Shown: one piece after another, positions 3,747 to 45,021 of the stretch
Position numbering within the stretch: the stretch's first letter is position 1
How the letters are laid out: every line of letters starts with the position of its first letter
Assembly (NCBI RefSeq): GCF_963675165.1
Contig: NC_087384.1
Coordinates: 4,333,182-4,397,181, forward strand
Direction: 5' to 3'
Source: Halichondria panicea
Taxonomy: Eukaryota > Porifera > Demospongiae > Suberitida > Halichondriidae
DNA length: 64,000 bases
Translations under genes and position numbers: made by a program
Notes under the pieces: generated by a model
What the model was told of the DNA's origin: nothing
The model's input: only the letters and a program-made list of their open reading frames with translations
Databases searched by the model: none

Positions 3747-6700
3747 CAAGATGGTGGTCCTTACGTATGATAGCCAGTTCTTCTTCAGGGACGTTGAGTT
3801 GTATCCCAAACCGTATGGGGTCAGTAAGAGTCTTCAACTCCACTGTCAAGGTGTGCAGGCTCCACTCTGGAACATCTGAGTGAACACAGAGGAGGTTGGT
3901 TAAATATTATACGAGGAATCAACATGCGTGCATAGAAAGAAGAAGAAAAGATACGGAAACTTGAAGAGAAAAGTATAGCTATCCTACTGAATAGCTAACT
4001 GCAAACAATCCTTATACTATAGTAGCCCAGAATCCAGGCAATCTGATTGGTCAGTACAGGGTTTATATTTCCCACATTAACATATAAATTCTCCTGTAAA
4101 CCTGTAACATCCACATGACATGGACATGGCTGTTCAATCTTTACTTGCACCATGCTTGCAGGCATGGTGTGTATTTAGTATATGCAGTTGTCCTTATTTC
4201 CTGCACCGTTTGTGCTTATACTCACGGGTGGGATGGGTTTGGGCCTAGAATTTGAGGTTACAAAGAAGAATCGTGATCAACCTCCTCTGGAGTGAACAAA
4301 AGTGTATTGATTACAAGTGAATTGCGAGTGCACAGACAGTGACTATACAGTGATACAGTGTACTGTATCACTGTATACACAGGGAACTTCCATAAAACGG
4401 ACACCATTGGGAAACAGTCCACTCCAAATGACATTCTGGTTTCTGGTCCTGAAGTTTCTCTAATTTGCGGGCGGCAGGCTATTGTCATTACGTCATTATT
4501 TGCTTGTTCCAACTTGTGTAAGAGTTATAACATGGGCACGAGGGATTGTATATGGTATATATATATTGCACTGAAGCACAAGGGCGCCAGCCCTGAGGGC
4601 TGAGTGCAATATACACCATGCACCCCGAGTGCACATGTTATAACTAGTTTATATCCCTAGCAACACAAAATACACCACAGCTTCTACAAATATTACTAAA
4701 GAGACTAGTCGCAGCTGCTTGCATCTTTGTTCAAAGACACCAGTATCTAACCGTTCAAAATTACTGTCATTGGCACGACAAATGGCTTGATTCACAAAAC
4801 GTTAGGCTCCTCGCTCGATGCTACAAGAGTAAAGCAGCCCCACCCCCCCCCGAACGTTGCAAAACACTCTCTTCTCAACACTGCTGCTGCAAAACAGCCC
4901 CATCCCAAAGACAAAGCTGCAGAGCAACTCGAGTAGCCCCACCTCAAACACTACTGCAAAAAAGCCGCTCTCAATTCTGACATGCCTCCAACCAGTGATT
5001 GTGTCCTGGATCCTAGGATCTAGGACCGTTCAAGCAGAAGTAATGAACTAGAGATATAATTATTTCTACTGTATATGCACATGCTTATATACATGCTTAT
5101 ATAATATAACGCGGCATTTAATTTTTGCTATGTAGATCATTAAATCCTCCTTTGTGTGTGGTCAGTGCAGAATATGAGATTTAGGCACCATATTGCACAT
5201 AGCAACAACATAGCAACGAGATATAAGTAATAAAATATTGAGATAGAAATCCAGCAATAAATCTAATGTGCATGCATGGGCGGTGGACCAGAAACCACAG
5301 TACAGTTGAGCCTCGATTCTCCGAACCCCAATCATCCGAATTTTCGATTATTCGGATGAAAGATTCGACCAAATATAAAAGCTTCAGCTTAGCTTAACAG
5401 TATAGCATGCTGCCTTGCTCTATCCACTGATGCATTATGTCCAGTCCAAAACTGGTACATTTGTAAAAGCTCTGGACATAATTCGCTGATTTTGCATGCG
5501 AATTATTGATGGGCATGGCTCATTTAGAGTCATTCTGAATATTTCAGCCATCCGGATGAGGTTGGGACATCAGGTGTTCGGATAATCGAGGCTCAACTGT
5601 ATTATTTGGAGTGCATGGCTTTATATATAGGGAGGTGGTCTTAGGTTTCGATTGCCATCCACATCAATGCTCTACGCTCTAACAAGTGAATCTTGGCTTC
5701 TCTATATAGGGCATACAAGGGCTGTATAGGGACGAGGTTTTCACTATTGTGTAAAAATAATGCATATCTCAGCAATAATTTTCTGCTGGTTCAGAGTGTG
5801 GCTGTTAGGGGCTGGCAGAATAATGTGCTGCCATAATTTTGAGAGTAATAGGCACATTTTTTGGTGAGAATTATGCTGGAGGTCAATCGAGTCAGTATAT
5901 AGGATAAATTTAAACTAGACTGTAACTAAAAGACATGCAGAACAGGCATGGATGCACCAAATCAAAGGGGTGGTGCTGAAGTTTAAATGGTCTAGCATGC
6001 CCGAAATTGTAGGTACGCTCCCCCCCACCCTTACAGATGTTAAATTGGGTCTTTTAGTATAGGAGAAATTAAGAAACCGATATATAATTATAGCATCAGG
6101 AGTGCATTCATTTAGTGACTAGTTTTTGATCTATAGCTGGCAATAAATAGCATTATAAGTAACCACTATTATGATATTATTGCTTAGCAACCAAAATGCA
6201 GGTTGAATCTGCGCATGCGCGATGCGGTTGCTTTGTCAACCAGAAGGATGCGTAGCAGGTTTCCCCCAGTTGAAGACGAGTTTAAGAGAAAGAAAACGGC
6301 TAAAAGACAAAGAAATAAGATTCTAGAACACCAGGAGAGCTTGCAGAAGGCTACTAAAAGATTTTGTAGAGAACAGACAAGAAAAAAAGACAAGAAAAAC
6401 GTTGACAACCAGCAACCCCTTTTGAAAATGGATAATTCTGACGGATAAACAGCGTGTGCTTGCTTTCTATCATGCTCCAGTGTATCAGAAGAAGAAACAT
6501 AGACCGCTATAGCCAAAGAAAAGTGTGACAACCATTTTGAAGCGAAACGACTTACAAGAGCCTGAAAAAGACTTAAATGGTGGTGCAGTACACTTCTACA
6601 TGTGCAATATTTCGCTCAAAGCATTCATTCCCAACACTGATGCCTGTTAGATGCATTAAATATGACTGCTAAACTGAACACTGACAACCTCCTGACCCTC

Positions 6701-9700
6701 AGCCTCACTGTAAAAGAGCAAAGAAGTTATACAGAGCATCAGAGAGCATCAAAAAACATGAAAGAGACTGATAAACATTGCATTGCATGATCATAAGTGT
6801 GTAAATTATTGTTTTTCTTGTTCTTTCACTGCTGAAAAACGTTTCATTCCAAATAAGAATCACTTCCTAGTGTGCAATAAAATAATACTTCCGGGTGTAC
6901 GATATGGAAAAATATCTGCACACTTGGTGATAAGTCACTTCCTGTGCAATTTGAATGTAAAACACTGATGTCAGCACTTATTAAAAAGCCTACATTATAC
7001 TCGATATGACTTAAATCAAGAGTACTACTCTTGCTTAAATTAATTGGTGCTTTTTGCTGTTCTTAACGCAACGCCATGCATACTTGCAACGTGTAATACT
7101 GAAGCAACGGTATGATACATTTCTTAATACGCTGACAAAACGGAAACGCTTCAAACGTTACTACGTGGATATATATTATACTACACGTAAACAGAATAGG
7201 AATTAACCTTTAATATAATTATTGATTGCTACTATACTGTAGATATAGGCATCCATGCAGAGCTGATATATAAGGCAACCCTAACTGGATCTATTATGTT
7301 ACAGTTCATTTTATAGTTCATTTACATCATTTAAATTCATATTATAAAAACATTCATATTGATCAGGAACTTGGAATAAAAGGACCTCATCCATGTCTCA
7401 CATTCTCTCAGCATGATCAGACAAGGTAACAGCATGCCCAGAGAGTCCTTACAGATGGATATCACCAGCTATATAGCTATCATGCACTGTACAAGCTAAC
7501 TACAGAGGAGGTTGGACACGCGTCATAATGGTTTACGGAGGAAATGTGTGTGCATAGAGAAACTTGCAGAGAACAGTAGCTATTCAGCCAAGTTAAAAGC
7601 CTGCAAGCGATTTTAGCACTCCATACTAGTAGTAAATGACGCTAAAAATACCCAGTGAAACTAGAAACTGAGTAGCATAGTCATACTAGAAGCAATGAGC
7701 CAGAAACTTAGATTAGTCACAAACATCGAGTTGTTGCTGCACTTGCCTTTGTTTTTTTTTTTACTCCTGTCTTGATGTAGCAGGTATAGCGATCATAGTG
7801 TTAAACTACTACGACTCATTAACTAACAGGAGATATAATACAAGAGAGATAGACAAGCAAGAATGGAAGAGTTAGGTAAAATGCTGACTCAGCAGGATCG
7901 AAAAGGATCGATTTTAAGCGTATTCATGGGATTATTGATGACTACGAATGACGCGTGTCCAGCCTCCTCTGAGCTAACTAGCTCATAGATAAACAAAATT
8001 AGCTGAATCAATTCTAAAATTACACTAATAATCTTCGCATAATTGGAAAGCGCTTCAATTCGAGTATAAAAAGCTTGCAGTTGAGCATGCGCTTAAAATA
8101 AAGAACGCTTATAATCGAGTATAAGCGCTAATAATCCAGTTTCTACGGTATGAACAAAATACTCACAGCTGGCAACAGTGTGGATGACAATCATCCGAAC
8201 AAAGTGAAAGCTGACACTAGCCTATATGGATGGCCACGCCCATAGACTCTATCCGAAGCTGCTGCAACAAATCTACAGCTCTGTCTCTAGTTAGCTAGGT
8301 ATAACAATACTGTACTTCTTCTAAATAAGGCGCCGCTTTTTAATAATTACCTTTTCGAGACTTAGTGTATGCAAAACAAGAAATAGCAATGATGGTGCCT
8401 TATGAGAGAAGTCTCCAGGTGGCGCCTTAATAGAAGAGGGTCTGTTTTAGAAGAAGTACGGTATATAGCTGTGTAGGACTTTAATGAATTTGTATTCTTT
8501 GTCTGTAACCTTAAGGTGACATATTTTCGCGTGTGCTATTTCTGCGAATGAGAGTAAAATCGCAAAAATGAGTACTCGCAAATAATTGGCCGCCCTATTG
8601 TTTTAATGTATCCAGATCGACATTTCGCAAAAAAATTATACCAGCAAAATGCACAAAACTGTAAAAACGCAAACAAATCTGTGGTGAGCCTTTTGTTTCA
8701 AAATGGTGATACAAAATACCATGTGTTGGTGTCCCAAAAATCAACTCAATTTTATCGACTTTATCTGGTAGGGATCGACTCGATGTGTTATAATCAACTC
8801 GATTTCATCTGGTAAGGATCGACTCGATGTGTTTTATCAACTCGATTCAAGGCCGCTGGGGGGAAAAGGTGAGTTTCAAGGGCGGCTTGATATCGAGGCT
8901 AATTATGGCTGTACTCTTGCAACAAAGGTGCTAGGCTCAGACAAGGCACTGAGACTCTTGAGGCCACAGGCAGGCCTACAGCAGGTCAGAGTAGCTAACC
9001 TTCCAGGCACGCCTGCAGAAGGTCACAGCAGCTTACTTGTGCTGGATCACAGTAATTAAATCACTAAATGCTTGTCTACTTGACTCTTGAGTTCATGAAA
9101 CAGAGCAAGTAGCTGCTGTGTGATCTCAGGCTGCACGCTAGAGTACAGCGACTACAGCCATATCAGGCCGCCCTCGAAACACGCCTTTCCCCCAGCGACC
9201 TGGAATCGAGTGGATCCTTACCAGAAGCAGTCGCTAAATCGAGTTGATAAAACACATCGAGTCGATCCCTACCAGATGAAGTCGATAAAATCGAGTTGAT
9301 AAAACACATCGAGTCGATTTATCCTTCCAGTTTGGGACACCAACACATGGTATTTTGTATCGCCATTTTGAAACAAAAGGCTCACCATACAAATCTACCT
9401 GTGAAAATATGTTACCTTAAGGTATTTATTCAGGATATTTTTCCGGTAAAAATTTCAGTTTAATGGGAAAATAATCGAATAACTTTGCGCATGTGGAAGC
9501 AGTTAGTAGCATGCAGGCCTCCTTTCTGAGGCCTTGTGAAGGAGGCTATATATCAAAGTGCGTGACTATTGCGGCAAATGTCATTTTTTGCATGCCTGTG
9601 CATGATATTTGCCACAATAGTCACGCACTTGTATGAAAACCACACATCATTTTTTTATAACAATGTGACGTAACAGGTGTGGTCCATGCAAGGTAAGCGC

Positions 9701-18367: not shown

Positions 18368-18441
18368 CAGAGGAGGTCGGACATCACTTGAACTTTCACT
18401 AATTATGACCTTTTAATGACATTCCAGGCCAAATTGCTTTT
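18368..18441 (+). mobile_element. Solo terminal repeat of the autonomous HIRAN/SANT transposon
   Basis: CAGAGGAGGTCGGACATCAC and the following ~55 bases are essentially identical to the terminal repeat at 39476-39549. No matching right end is found nearby, so this is a truncated copy or one end of a deleted element. The close match suggests recent activity (inference). Confidence 0.85.
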
Positions 18442-19041
18442 CGTTTTTGCTATACTATACTATAACTCTATCTATGATTCAATAATAATTATACATAGCT
18501 GCTATCAGGCGTGCCCGCACCTGCCCGTCCCCAACCATAAAATGGGGGGACGGGTTTCAGCCCTATCTAGCATTCGTTCTGCTGCAGAAAATCATGCAGC
18601 ACCAATCAGATTGCAGACTACTTACGTGGTGCACTTGAGCACCAATCAGATTGTATAGCCCTTATGTACGTAATGCATTCCTTGGCTTCCCCATCCAATT
18701 TCCCATGTTGGCCTGACTCATCCCGGGGGCGGGGGGGGGGTTAGTAGGGCAACACATTGATAGGTATAAACTATTATAGATTTAACTAACTACGAATAGG
18801 GTAGATCTTTTATAAGATAAAAAATATCTAAGGAAGCTCACCTTGTTTCCATAGTCCTGATACTTTTGGCATATACTTTTGGCTTTGCTGAGCACTTATA
18901 TAAACACCATGTGTACTAGGTGTACGTACAAGCCTAGGTACAAGCATAGATCAAAGAATTACAAGCAACTGCATAGACCATAGAGCTAGAGCTAGAGCTA
19001 GATACACCAAAGAAAGGGATAGGCAACGCCCCACGTGATGC

Positions 19042-39466: not shown

Positions 39467-39475
39467 GCACCAAAC

Positions 39476-39623
39476 CAGAGGAGGTCGGACATCACTTGAA
39501 CTTTCACTAATTATGACCTTTTAATGACATTCCAGGCCAAATTGCTTTTACGTTTTATGCTGATTCAGCACAAATAATGCTGACTCTAGCACAAATAATG
39601 CTGACTCAGCAGTAGCGTCTCCT
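39476..39623 (+). repeat. Left terminal inverted repeat with subterminal T-MARE
   Basis: The repeat runs CAGAGGAGGTCGGACATCAC onward and then contains three spaced CTGAnTC(T)AGCA motifs. The last, TGCTGACTCAGCA at 39599-39611, is a perfect palindrome identical to the T-MARE consensus bound by Maf/AP-1 bZIP factors. It lies about 80 bp upstream of the HIRAN gene start codon, where a promoter would be. Confidence 0.85.
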
Positions 39624-39691
39624 TTCGTTTCTGCATTGTGACAGAAACCCTAAACCAGTTGCATGCAGTTATATATATATATTAAGATCTG

Positions 39692-40258
39692 ATGGCTACT
39701 GGACCTAACCCTATGTCTATGAGCACCGACAGCGACAGTAGCAGTGAGGATGAAGGCAGCAATGGCAGAAACAGTGACAGTGACAGTGACCCTAACATTA
39801 ACAGTGACAGTGCTAGTGCTAGTGAGCCTGATAGTGAGCCAGAGGATGTTCGAGAGACAACATTAACACAGAGATGTCACAGACTAAAATTTAAGTGTAT
39901 TGGTAGCAAGAAGGAGCAAAGATACCAAGATGCTCTTCGATCAGCTCAGGATGTGCGACGGCTTGGACATACAATCCCTGTCTCATTATTCAAGGAACCT
40001 CTAAACCCTAGAGATGCACAAGCAATAGCCTTCAAATGTCAGTTGGATGGAAAATGGAAAACGATAGGATATGTCGTTAGTGAATTGTTAGATGAAGTCC
40101 ACACTGTAATGGATAATGGCAGAATAATATCTGTGGAGTTTGCCTGGATATCTTATGTTACTGACTGGAGATCAGGACCAGCATACTTCGCTGGTATATG
40201 GGTCGAGAAGAGGGGTGAGTGGTCAAACCTAGCTAAACGAAAAGCAAGTACAAGATAA
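39692..40258 (+). CDS. HIRAN-like accessory protein of the transposon
   Basis: A single-exon 188-residue frame. Residues 1-55 are an acidic Ser/Asp/Glu repeat (DSDSSSEDEG, NSDSDSDPN). Residues 65-175 resemble a HIRAN domain, with IPVSLFKEPLNPRDAQAIAF, WKTIGYVVSELL and a following beta strand. HIRAN domains bind 3' DNA ends in HLTF/Rad5-type repair proteins, so a role at transposition ends or in strand processing is plausible (inference). The C-terminus is basic (LAKRKASTR). ATG at 39692 is the first in frame. It converges on the SANT/DDE gene with 146 bp between stops. The HIRAN call rests on motif resemblance only. Confidence 0.75.
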   Translation: MATGPNPMSMSTDSDSSSEDEGSNGRNSDSDSDPNINSDSASASEPDSEPEDVRETTLTQRCHRLKFKCIGSKKEQRYQDALRSAQDVRRLGHTIPVSLFKEPLNPRDAQAIAFKCQLDGKWKTIGYVVSELLDEVHTVMDNGRIISVEFAWISYVTDWRSGPAYFAGIWVEKRGEWSNLAKRKASTR

Positions 40259-40401
40259 CTGGTTATTGAACTTTATGTTATGTGTATTTATTTATTATGC
40301 GTTCATGAATCTTTTTAATCCCTTGTTGTGTTGTATAATTTGATTTTCATATAAATTATTGCTTAATTGAACACAATAAGAAGTATATAATGTTGGAGTG
40401 A

Positions 40402-40409
40402 AGTTTATT
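40402..40409 (-). terminator. Polyadenylation signal overlapping the stop codon
   Basis: On the minus strand the gene ends CAATAAACTTC: the TAA stop lies within an AATAAA hexamer. The convergent HIRAN gene stops 146 bp away, so the two 3' ends share a very short spacer. Confidence 0.7.
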
Positions 40410-43400
40410 GAGCGTATGAGTGTTCAAATAGGTGATGTTGAGTGCTTTCCAGTGGTGGTGGCATTGGAATGGGTAAATTATGGAAGGTCATCCTAGTTGA
40501 ACGAGCACCAGATTCAGGGAGTGTTGCTCTTCCATACATAAGGTGAGCTGGTTGTTCTTTTCTTCGAACACGTTTCTTCCTCTTCTTTGAAGGTTTCTCA
40601 TCAAAGTGCGGTCTGCTTCCTTCATAAAAGCGGTCATGTGATGAAGAAAAGTAATAAAACCCCAGAGTTGGGTCTGACCTCTTGTCAAACTCGATGCACA
40701 CCTTCCTCCAGGTGTACCTCGCTTGCCGTAAGGTAAAGTGCTTTCCTGTCAAATCCCTCATGATTGAGAACATGCACTCAACATCATCAGTAGTGCTTGA
40801 GCGGGGATTCTCCATTGGCCTTCCAGTTTGGGCGTACTCTCGTCTTTTCCATTCAACACTTTCGATTCCTGTGGTGAGGGCATACACAATCTCCCTGGTG
40901 AATCCTAGGACAGTTACTTTCCTGTGTGGAAAAATTACCACTAGATCATTTTTGCTTCAATTCACATCAACAGTAAACTTTAGGTTACCTTGTAACTTCC
41001 ATCAAACTGAAGTCGTACTGGGCTGTATGCCAAGGCATCAGCTCATCTAAAATGAGATTCAGGAGGTCATAGTTGTACTTTGACCTCTGGAGAGATGACA
41101 GACCTCGCTCGTCACAAGAGCGCCTCCAATTCCTGATGACTCTAACGTACTTCTCTTCATACTCATATTTATTTTTTCTCATGAACAGTTCAACACCCTC
41201 AGAGAAAAGATTTTCTGCATCTTGGACTGACTGTTTTCTCTGGCCTGTCAATGCTGGGTACGTTAGTCCAGACTCGTCATCATATAATGCCTCATGAAAT
41301 CTTTCAACCCTGATTGGTTGTGGGCCTCCTTTCCTTGTGCACTGGCACACTCTCTATATAGAAGTATATTAAATAAAAACACACCCAAGCTAGTGAATGT
41401 ACTGTAAAAAAACATATATACCTTCATAATGTGTGCAAAATCTTCTCTCTCGTGGAATTCTTTGCCGGTAATGGGATGAATTTCAGGAACATACATGTGA
41501 GTAGAGAATGGCACACCCTTTTCAACCCAATGGCACACTTGATACTTGTACTCCATCTGAGAAAGAATGGCTCTTAGCTTGTCACCTTTGTCTTCTGCCC
41601 TCTGATCTACACATAATTATTATACGTACTTTCACGTAATTTTGGTTGGTCATTATTATCATACCTGAATTATATATAACATCATACCTGACCATGGGCA
41701 TGGAGTATATCCTGATGGTACTGTACGCAGTCTGAGCCTCCCTATCCAATCATCTGTATCGATGCCAGCATTTTTCCATCCCCAGATTTCAGACAGGACT
41801 CTCATAGGAACAGCTGGGTTTCCTTTCACAGCTTGAATACTACCATCTGGCATTTCTGAATGGAAATCATGCATGCGTACAATAATATTATACTGATGTA
41901 CAGTACATATACAACTTTACAAACCTGTAGGAGTCAACATGTTCATCATAGCGGTTACAGACATTTTGTCAAACTTCTTTTTTGCTTGTGATTTGATTTC
42001 AAGCACTGAAAGGGGACGAGTATATCCTTTTACCCTCATAGTGTTATACTCTCCATTAGAAAGGAAACCTAATAAAGAAAATGCACATGAACACACATAC
42101 ATGTAGAAGGTTCACAACAAGCACCTACCACTGACATCCATGTTTCTGTCTTTCATTGCTATCACAATTTTGTTGAGAATTGACCTCATTTGTGCAACAC
42201 TTATCCCAACGTAAGAAATACATTGAATCGGCAGGGCATAAGGCTTCTTTGACCGTGACTCCGTGCTTAGCAAAATGACGAGAATATGTGTAGCTGCTGT
42301 CCTCTTGTGCTTGTACAACCCTGTCAAGAATTACAATACTTAAATCTTATGTACTTAATACACTTACCTTTGACAAACTCCAACAATTTCTTGTGTACAA
42401 GTGTTAACTTCTTTGCGACATTAAGAGCGATGATATCGGCGTCAGCATCCTCTAGCACATCTTTTAGTGTTGCCAAGTCAGTGCGTAACACTCGACCACC
42501 AGCAGACAGCTTTTGTAGATCATCTACATTCCATGCAAGGTTTAAGAGAGTTTTCTCATGTGAGACGCCACTTCGAACTTTGGCTGAATATGCATCATTG
42601 CACTTCTTTAAAGCTGCAAGGAAACTATCCATCATACTTACTACGTATTTGGAATGTACATGTACCTTCAACAACGAAGTTAACATCTCCTTCGAGTTTG
42701 CCATACTCTTCATGGACAACGGTAACTAGAGCTGGACGTCTATCAACTATGGACTGGTTTGTGCAAAGCATATCAATTGCAGAACGACGTGTACGATACA
42801 TGTGGTAGAGTTCCTGGACAGCTTCAGTAGCATAATCTGCATCTCCGTTCCATTCAAGCCGTACAGACTCCTCCAAACCACTCACGATATCACAACCGTC
42901 AGCCTTGATCCACCATTTAGCCTCAGGATGCACCTCTACAGCATGGTCTAGTGTAGCCATCTGAAAAAAAAAGTTGAGTATAAAGAAACTTCAGAAAATT
43001 AAATTTACCTGAATGTTCCAAGAATTAGAGAACTGGGTATTCACAATGTGCCTTCTCATTGTGCGCTCACCTAGGGCAGGTACATTCACTCGAGCCTATG
43101 AGATCAATCATACAGATTTACACACATGATATTATACATGTACCTGTATGGGATCCAAAAAAACTACGTTTTCTTGTCCAGTTTGAGTTGTTGAGACCTG
43201 ACTCCACATTGGACCACATAGCATTTTTGAGAACTTAGTCCCAAATAGAGAGTACATGCTAACAAGCCACTTCTCGTAACCTTCTGAACACACAGCCTGC
43301 ATGTGTATAGGTTTAAATTGAACAATAATAAGTCTATACGCACACCTATTTAATACTTACATGAGTTGCATTTGTAGAAGTAAAAAAAGTCGTCATGTAC

Positions 43401-44859
43401 TGAAGTAACCCAAAAGGCATCCTTGATACTGGAAAGCGTGACTCGTTAGAGTTAGGTCGGAGTGTACCTAATCCTTTGGCAAGATGATACAATACGTTCA
43501 CTTTGCCGTTAGAGTCCAAGTGCTTCATTGCAAGCAGTGTCAACTCAAGAAAGTTACCATCCACGGCAACTTTATAGAAGCTGGTAGCGAGTTCACAAAA
43601 CAGCTCACTGATTAATTTCAGCTGGTCTGCAGGTGGAAGGTTTAGAACCTGCCGTTTGAAGTTCTGAAACTTGTCAACCATTACGAGATTAACCTGGCAT
43701 TCTCCAGTATCAACCTACATGGATAAAATAATAGTACACACAGCCTGTACATGATATACTTCAGTACGTACATAAGAGACACTCAGAGCTTGTGGCTCTG
43801 AAGATACTCTTGCAGGGAGTGTCATGAGGGGTGTTGTACTAGGGTGTTTAGAACGTGTAGCCGTGAGTGCTATTTCTGCTTCCCTCGGTGCTGTGTAGTG
43901 TTTGCTGAGAACCTTCCTCACTCGAGAGCTACACGCCAAACCTAGTCATATACATTTTAGTCATTATTTTAAAGTATTTTAACACACACATCCATGCAAC
44001 GGTATTTATTTCACTCACTGCTTCGCAATGGTTCTTGGCTTCTTTGGTGTACAAACAGAGCAGCTAACTTCCAGAAATTCTCAGACATTGCAGGCCAACT
44101 ATTGCTAGGTGTTGATAATAGAATAAACTTTACAATTGCTATATCTTCCTTTAATTTCCATTTCGATGCAGTAGTCGGAGAGGGTGTACACGAGGCACCG
44201 GATTGTTGAGCAACTGAGCTTGTGCTGTTTTTCACTGTGAGGGGAAGTCTTCGACTGCGGGGTCGCTTCTCCTGCTGCTTGGGTGTTATTCCAGTAGGAG
44301 TGGACAACTGTCGACATCGCTTTCTTTCACCACTAGCTCTAGCTCTGTCGACATGTTCAGCCATGGCTAGCTGGTTAGTGCTGCTCGGAATTCGACTCTG
44401 GGGTCGCTTCTCATGCTGCTTGGCCTTGGCCGCCCTGGGTACGGGTGTACATATTACATAAACACTGGCAGTAGGAGTGGACAACTGTCGACATTGCTTT
44501 GTTTCATCAATAGCTCTAGCTCTGTGTTCAACCATGACCAGCTGGTTAGATCTAGTGTTGCTCCTGAGGGGAATTCGACTCTGGGGTCGCTTCTCATGCT
44601 GCTTGGCCTTGGCTGTTACTGTACATATTACATCAACACTGGCAGTAGGAGTTGAAAACTGTTGAAATAGCTTTCTCTTGGCTCTGTGTTCAACCATGAC
44701 TAGCTGGTTAGATCTAGTGTTGCTCCTGAGGGGAATTCGACTCTGGGGTCGCTTCTCATGCTGCTTGGCCTTGGCTGCCTTCCGTGTTACATCAACACTG
44801 GCAGTAGGAGTTGAAAACTGTTGAAATAGCTTTCTCTTGGCACTGTCACGTTCAGCCAT
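40405..44859 (-). CDS. Putative transposase: N-terminal repeats, SANT/Myb-like domain, DDE-like core (13 exons)
   Basis: Exons 44859-44019, 43941-43772, 43714-43361, 43296-43144, 43095-43009, 42960-42666, 42640-42368, 42320-42129, 42068-41925, 41855-41688, 41606-41422, 41353-40989 and 40921-40405 join in phase to 1,247 residues without a stop. The N-terminus has four diverged repeats of about 50 residues (QLSTPTASV..., KAKQHEKRPQSRIP). Around 240-305 a SANT/Myb-like module has WKLKEDIAIVKFIL, ENFWKLAALF and SSLACSSRVRKVLS. Candidate catalytic acids are D556 (KADGCDIV), D782 or D786 (KDRNMDVSG) and E1124 (DDVECMFSIMRD). The last resembles the final glutamate helix of hAT/P-like transposases. 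The C-terminus is basic (KKRKKRVRRK). The catalytic assignment is inference. AATAAA overlaps the stop codon. Confidence 0.85.
44190..44850 (-). repeat. Tandem repeats inside the transposase first exon
   Basis: Four units of about 150 bp encode copies of a basic segment (AKAKQHEKRPQSRIP ... STPTASV). Units 1 and 2 are almost identical at the DNA level and units 3 and 4 are more diverged, showing ongoing unit expansion. Confidence 0.85.
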
Positions 44860-44891
44860 AGCTGGCTAGCTAGCTAGGATCAGGATTATGG

Positions 44892-45012
44892 TTTACTTTA
44901 CTGCTGAGTCAGCATTATTTGTGCTAAGTCAGCATAAAAAATGCAATTTGGCCTGGAATGTCATTAAAAGGTCATAATTAGTGAAAGTTCAAGTGATGTC
45001 CGACCTCCTCTG
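44892..45012 (-). repeat. Right terminal inverted repeat with subterminal T-MARE
   Basis: It mirrors the left end. TGCTGAGTCAGCA at 44902-44914 is the complementary T-MARE palindrome, about 45 bp upstream of the transposase start codon at 44859, so both genes have the motif in promoter position. Confidence 0.85.
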
Positions 45013-45021
45013 GCACCAAAC

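Follow-up and report, generated by a model that had tools for sequence, protein, structure and literature searches.

A recurrent two-gene DNA transposon of Halichondria panicea pairs a HIRAN-type protein with a transposase apparently related to those of P elements

A 64,000-nucleotide stretch of the Halichondria panicea genome (contig NC_087384.1, positions 4,333,182 to 4,397,181; hereafter the window, in whose own numbering features are placed) contains a complete DNA transposon of 5,537 bp at positions 39476-45012, with two convergent genes: one for a small protein with a HIRAN domain, the other for a 13-exon transposase. These data suggest, with a fair degree of probability, a full-length cut-and-paste element from a lineage distantly related to P elements, whose conserved second component, the HIRAN protein, would handle 3' DNA ends.

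The element is bounded by terminal inverted repeats of about 115 bp (left, 39476-39591, plus strand, starting CAGAGGAGGTCGGACA; right, 44902-45012, minus strand) that are 93% alike across 116 columns and 99% alike over their outermost 75 bases. Immediately outside these ends lie identical copies of GCACCAAAC (39467-39475 and 45013-45021), and 9 bp is the sole duplication length that fits. Querying the genome to which the window belongs (131 Mb, 39 contigs) with the first 26 bases of the element end returned 98 exact matches, as compared with 0 for the reversed pattern. Sixteen two-ended copies, drawn from 88 loci and with at most 3 mismatches in the 26 bases at either end, include ten with a perfect 9-bp duplication, two with a one-base and one with a two-base difference; the 9-mer is displaced by one base in L071, none is present in L082 and L087, and no other length of at least 4 bp fits. 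Of 20 loci chosen for this check, six yielded no two-ended copy. A lone end of the same family, 98% alike over 86 columns, lies elsewhere in the window (18368-18451, plus strand). No empty target site was found for the window element, its flanks matching themselves only, and no relatives were found in viral and prokaryote contig collections. A sequence-only reading of the window had claimed an intact transposon at this place with a perfect 9-bp duplication, and had proposed searching related genomes for the terminal repeat with its duplication; the ends and flanks bear out the first two points, and copies with matching ends recur in the genome to which the window belongs, both in the window family and in three diverged families described below.

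The inverted ends also contain copies of TGCTGASTCAGCA, the textbook Maf/bZIP site (39558-39611 and 44902-44934); allowing one mismatch, the element has four. The C10 and C15 elements have one close to the left terminus, and C7 has none. These sites may drive both genes, or may be bound by the transposase.

The transposase gene occupies the minus strand from 44859 to 40405, with its 3' end 146 bp from that of the HIRAN gene, and comprises 13 exons that join in phase across 12 GT-AG introns of 47-81 bp to encode 1,238 residues without an internal stop. Exon 1 (44019-44859) encodes basic repeats and then a segment whose counterpart in some relatives is Myb/SANT-like, and is followed by exons 2 (43772-43941), 3 (43361-43714) and 4 (43144-43296). 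Exon 5 (43009-43095) holds the segment that matches the P-element helix-turn-helix region; exon 6 (42666-42960) contains WWIKADG with the proposed first catalytic Asp, D556; and exon 7 (42368-42613) belongs to a large insertion that P lacks. Alignment with the P RNase H domain starts in exon 8 (42129-42320; ATHILV..KKPYALP), and the second catalytic position, Asn784, lies in exon 9 (41925-42068; LSNGEYN). After exon 10 (41688-41855), exon 11 (41422-41606; HEREDFAH) carries the D939-x2-H942 motif and, after exon 12 (40989-41353), exon 13 (40405-40921; TTDDVECMF) the proposed catalytic Glu1115. Spliced alignment of C7, C8, and C10 family proteins to the window DNA gave stop-free matches scoring 1,936, 1,972, and 1,857, respectively (18 shuffled or reversed controls scored at most 129), from which exons 3, 4, 5, 7, 10, and 12 also draw their evidence. 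The splice model is supported because these relatives recover most introns exactly (10, 8, and 9 of 12), though the gene models of these proteins had in turn been guided by the window protein, and they leave introns 1 and 2 unsupported. The convergent intact genes and 13 in-phase exons of the sequence-only reading therefore hold, while its length of 1,247 codons was slightly high. Within the region of exon 1 (44238-44860), repeats about 140-183 bp apart encode the basic KQHEKRPQSRIP unit.

Protein searches of the genome identified 96 transposase and 66 HIRAN matches. Among 25 transposase clusters, the HIRAN match lying closest in the 3.5 kb downstream is convergent in 17 and on the same strand in none; the remaining eight have no match there. 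The pairing of the two proteins, proposed earlier from this single element, is thus more firmly established than the sequence-only reading could have known. Complete elements of other families were recovered at C7 (5,695 bp), C12 (6,991 bp), and C15 (5,999 bp), all with a perfect 9-bp duplication, and at C10 (5,860 bp), where the duplication has one mismatch. These represent three families (C12 grouping with C8, and C15 with C10), and each element starts CAGAGGAGG. Shorter elements at C6, C5, and C13, likewise starting CAGAGGAGG and flanked by perfect duplications, have a HIRAN match without a transposase match. The family duplication counts omit C1:14289023 (CAGAGTAGG, interior) and two C14 copies of the window family that are counted elsewhere; partly covered loci (C14:3981480, C4, C16, C5:4959735, and two on C1) lie outside the end counts.

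Both proteins are conserved to a similar degree across these families. Transposase identity to the window protein ranges from 40 to 48% (C8, 48%; C7, 46%; C10, 44%) and HIRAN identity from 38 to 50%. Between families, the proportion of differing third codon positions is 0.62-0.71 for HIRAN and 0.64-0.68 for the transposase, as compared with 0.38-0.48 at first and 0.32-0.44 at second positions for both genes. The alignments were made as protein, which leans toward a third-position excess, and the ranges omit the transposase comparisons with C12 and C15, which differences of frame cut short, as well as that of the C10 and C15 HIRAN genes, which are nearly identical and show hardly any changes. 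This excess is as expected if both genes have been kept by selection. Recurrence of the two genes together, in many copies and across families of one genome, makes the HIRAN partner look like a genuine component of the transposition machinery.

The HIRAN gene is an open reading frame of 188 codons (39692-40258, plus strand) whose product has an acidic, Ser/Asp-rich N-terminus followed by a stretch matching the HIRAN profile PF08797. The window protein scores 21.8-22.9 bits, just below the cut-off of 24.7; however, seven of eight aligned transposon HIRAN proteins match the profile (E up to 1; best 6.7e-10), and searching the genome with PF08797 returned several relatives above the cut-off, among them the C8 and C12 partners at 39 bits. 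A profile of all eight members, compared with the PDB, gave HLTF HIRAN as each of its five best matches (E 0.07-0.10); the window protein alone gave no match there. The P-N-N-P-Y-D-x-x-A-I region aligns with HLTF, and within its NNPYD motif the equivalents of N91 (the second Asn) and D94 are invariant in 8/8 members. From these profile comparisons there is good support for assigning the small protein a HIRAN domain, as the sequence-only reading had done. The Ser/Asp-rich acidic start of the window copy spans 39692-39840; in the C4 and C14 open reading frames the match is preceded by about 135-170 residues, among them a common stretch (FIP..F, VW/LWNW) absent from the window copy.

Kinship of the transposase to P elements is visible in its relatives. 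Four of seven aligned members match the N-terminal RNase H domain of P elements (PF21787) at 26.6, 23.2, 16.3, and 12.8 bits, one above the cut-off of 24.6 and the other three below it; the C4 match ends VTDGEWN and so places the second catalytic residue. Compared by hhalign with a set of four P elements from this genome, the family profile scored 41.7 over the RNase H stretch (E 4.1e-5, probability 70%), exceeding all 150 column shuffles (maximum 28.5) and the reversed profile (17.8). The helix-turn-helix stretch ahead of this domain scored 17.2, where shuffles reached no more than 13.5, and a second match, on D-x2-H, is collinear but insignificant alone (E 0.11). By sequence, the window transposase had no match in the PDB, and the family profile matched two designed proteins only (E 3.9 and 6.1). 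On these alignments, relationship to P is well supported for the middle of the protein, moderately for the helix-turn-helix stretch upstream, and weakly for the C-terminal Glu stretch. Ordinary P-type elements are also numerous in this genome, matching PF21787 at up to 100 bits (eight members of one family score identically); two P-related lineages thus coexist in one genome.

The catalytic signature of P transposases comprises D230, D303, D339, and E531 (PMC7776569 and PMC8230255). The proposed counterparts in the window transposase are D556, position 784, D939-x2-H942, and E1115; D556, D939-x2-H942, and E1115 lie within conserved motifs. Position 784 and its equivalents are Asp (DGE) in the C4, C5, and C14 families; a Glu two residues further on is present in 8/8. 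In the tree, C4 and C14 form a two-member Asp clade apart, while the damaged C5 copy, also Asp, falls with the Asn families at a poorly resolved fork.

We propose that the Myb/SANT-like and helix-turn-helix-like parts of the transposase would bind the transposon ends, and that the enlarged RNase H-like domain, through the four positions above, would cut and join with a 9-bp stagger. P elements are cut with a 17-nt stagger, leaving 3' extensions (PMC7776569). If cutting here is P-type, it would leave 3' single-stranded extensions on both transposon and donor ends; such extensions are the kind of end that a HIRAN protein would meet, and a partnership of the two might be expected. The HIRAN protein could bind those 3' ends and thereby shield the joining ends of the transposon or steer repair of the gap. 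The element may still be mobile today.

Several observations weigh against this account. The window transposase alone returned nothing of note in Pfam and matched no transposase family; the GTP-binding domain PF21788 had no match in Pfam scans of the window protein or family members, though DxxH and the last Glu are 176 residues apart, as compared with 192 in P; and the last-Glu stretch scored only 14.7, which 3 of 150 shuffles reached. The HLTF pocket appears conserved in part only. HLTF holds a single-stranded dinucleotide between Y72 and Y93, and its HIRAN function is fully lost only when N90 and N91 are mutated together (PMC4666394); here the second of the two Asn equivalents alone is invariant, the Tyr93 equivalent is Tyr or Phe in 5/8 members and Arg in the window copy, and the alignment did not reach the Tyr72 side of the pocket. 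No end pair was found at C8:4922500 or C6:6922223, in 7 kb examined at each, and a C9 copy has neither the outer left end nor a duplication. All relatives come from the one genome. Finally, the second catalytic position is Asn (NGE) in five of eight families, the window's among them; this Asn may be tolerated, the nearby Glu may have taken over, or these families may be moved by others.

An unlikely, though serious, alternative is a P-related transposon whose HIRAN protein acts outside the transposition complex, either as a regulator or by protecting the element from host silencing or repair. The long acidic N-terminus, the further N-terminal stretch in some families, and the partial conservation of the HLTF pocket would all suit such a role. 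A C6-type derivative of 2,080 bp also points this way, having kept the HIRAN open reading frame, without a transposase match, at four places (L044-L047; the duplication is perfect in L046, has one mismatch in L047, is absent in L044, and L045 is incomplete). However, the 17 convergent clusters and the conservation of the protein across families suit a core role equally or better.

We also consider it unlikely that the lineage is a separate superfamily, sister to P, defined by 9-bp targets, an obligatory 3'-end-binding HIRAN factor of its own, and a second Asp made dispensable by the Glu of NGE/DGE. The sequence-only reading had raised the possibility of an undescribed superfamily; because relatives can be aligned with P-element transposases across the RNase H domain, the element is better described as belonging to a deeply diverged, P-related lineage. 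That alignment does uphold its designation of the protein as a DDE-type transposase. Its SANT-like part survives as weak N-terminal Myb/SANT-like matches in 2/4 families, which lie below the cut-off and do not include the window copy. The different target length, N-terminus, and insertions might justify superfamily rank.

It is doubtful, too, that the window family is a passenger whose Asn784 transposase no longer cuts and which is moved by Asp-bearing relatives of the C4 and C14 types. The replacement of Asp by Asn, with Asp retained in the C4, C5, and C14 families, gives this idea its basis, and alanine at the second position dramatically reduced excision by a zebrafish P-type transposase (PMC10983969). 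However, it has been remarked that a D-to-N change may leave activity unaffected (PMC8230255), and the Glu present in all eight families might serve instead. Moreover, the families with Asn include complete elements with perfect duplications, and codon conservation suggests working genes.

Membership of another superfamily of similar outward appearance, such as MuDR, hAT, or Kolobok, is improbable. MuDR/MULE elements share a 9-bp duplication and long inverted ends with the present element, and hAT elements have CAGAG-like ends with an 8-bp duplication. Against this, PF21787 is the sole transposase family matched, in 4/7 members, in a comparison made by Pfam scan alone: the seven members showed no MULE transposase domain at E up to 10 and no hAT match (by Pfam scan, as opposed to a direct hAT profile). 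The general Pfam scan of members showed no KDZ or Merlin transposase domain. The comparison with named groups envisaged by the sequence-only reading thus yields a P-type match among relatives and no Pfam match to these others. TTAA is found in none of 20 listed 9-bp duplications, at odds with the 4-bp TTAA target of Kolobok, and the length is 9 bp in every clear case, as opposed to the 3 bp of PIF/Harbinger or the 8 bp of P and hAT. Transposons do catch host genes, but a HIRAN gene captured once and functionless for the element is scarcely credible given the same orientation in 17 clusters, HIRAN identities that resemble those of the transposase, and conserved codons.

Compared with the P superfamily (Drosophila P, zebrafish Pdre2, and THAP9), the lineage shares the PF21787 match with its preceding helix-turn-helix stretch, a similar spacing between DxxH and the last Glu (176 residues in the window transposase, 192 in P), and many deletion derivatives. 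Its ends, like those of P elements, start with CA. It differs in its duplication of 9 rather than 8 bp; in its large insertions, with 228 residues between the first catalytic Asp and position 784 as compared with 73 in P; in the Asn at the second catalytic position of most families; and in its ends of about 115 bp and convergent HIRAN gene. Pfam searches of the whole window protein, and of N-terminal segments from four families, detected no THAP domain, and two of those segments are weakly Myb/SANT-like; the GTP-binding domain was not detected in the window protein or family members. The HIRAN partner, in turn, differs from HLTF in being a small stand-alone protein within a transposon, with no SNF2 or RING domain.

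Transposons with a transposase and a conserved second protein are known from other groups. Kolobok elements have accessory proteins, and the second protein of PIF/Harbinger is Myb-like. Kolobok lineages may carry accessory nucleases or RecQ (PMC9587614), RAG1L and RAG2L form a convergent transposon gene pair as here (PMC7204232), and PIF/Harbinger encodes two proteins (PMC2836001). All of these differ in target and transposase, and in the parts compared none has a HIRAN partner; the word HIRAN is absent from the Kolobok text (PMC9587614). No paper joining HIRAN with a eukaryotic transposon was found among the matches listed; Repbase lay outside this search and may hold an entry. Its duplication length, N-terminus, insertions, and HIRAN partner mark the element as, at the least, a new form of P-type transposon, and it would extend the P group to a lineage in which the target length and N-terminal part differ and one catalytic position is altered. 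If the favoured reading is correct, a P-related element with a 3'-end handler of its own would offer a natural test case for 3'-end handling.

A large group of the repeats in this genome belongs to the lineage: the shared end motif CAGAGGAGGTNNGACA has 2,212 exact occurrences, as compared with 2 for the reversed control. Within the window, CAGAGGAGG occurs 13 times (0.3 expected). Three small members with perfect 9-bp duplications were identified, at 1153-1464 (CAGAGGAGG ends; ACATTATAG, with a second right end at 2249 that has the same duplication), 3887-4289 (GAGTGAACA), and 7503-7971 (AGCTAACTA); the same scan of the reversed window found none. Other ends in the window have no partner of their own (2241, common to the first small member; 15928; 18368; 25541; and 61380).

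Short CAGAGGAGG..CCTCCTCTG sites of 27-49 bp are also present, and six distinct kinds were examined with their flanks. A perfect 9-bp duplication surrounds those at C5:3194652 and C3:414976, and one with a one-base difference that at C3:5439192 (repeated on C3); C12:3975310 needs an indel, and none was found at the repeat shared by C1, C13, C15, C7, and C14 or at C8:1060987. These sites were considered as P-type excision footprints, and this was rejected: 11 further sites of 59-80 bp, one sharing its left end with C5:3194652, show a continuum of tiny deletion derivatives. Because of this continuum, the short sites are not used as proof of the cutting stagger. The site at C3:5439192, with eight like it on C3, and that at C1:4307815 and its like are repeated short palindromes, apparently carried inside other repeats.

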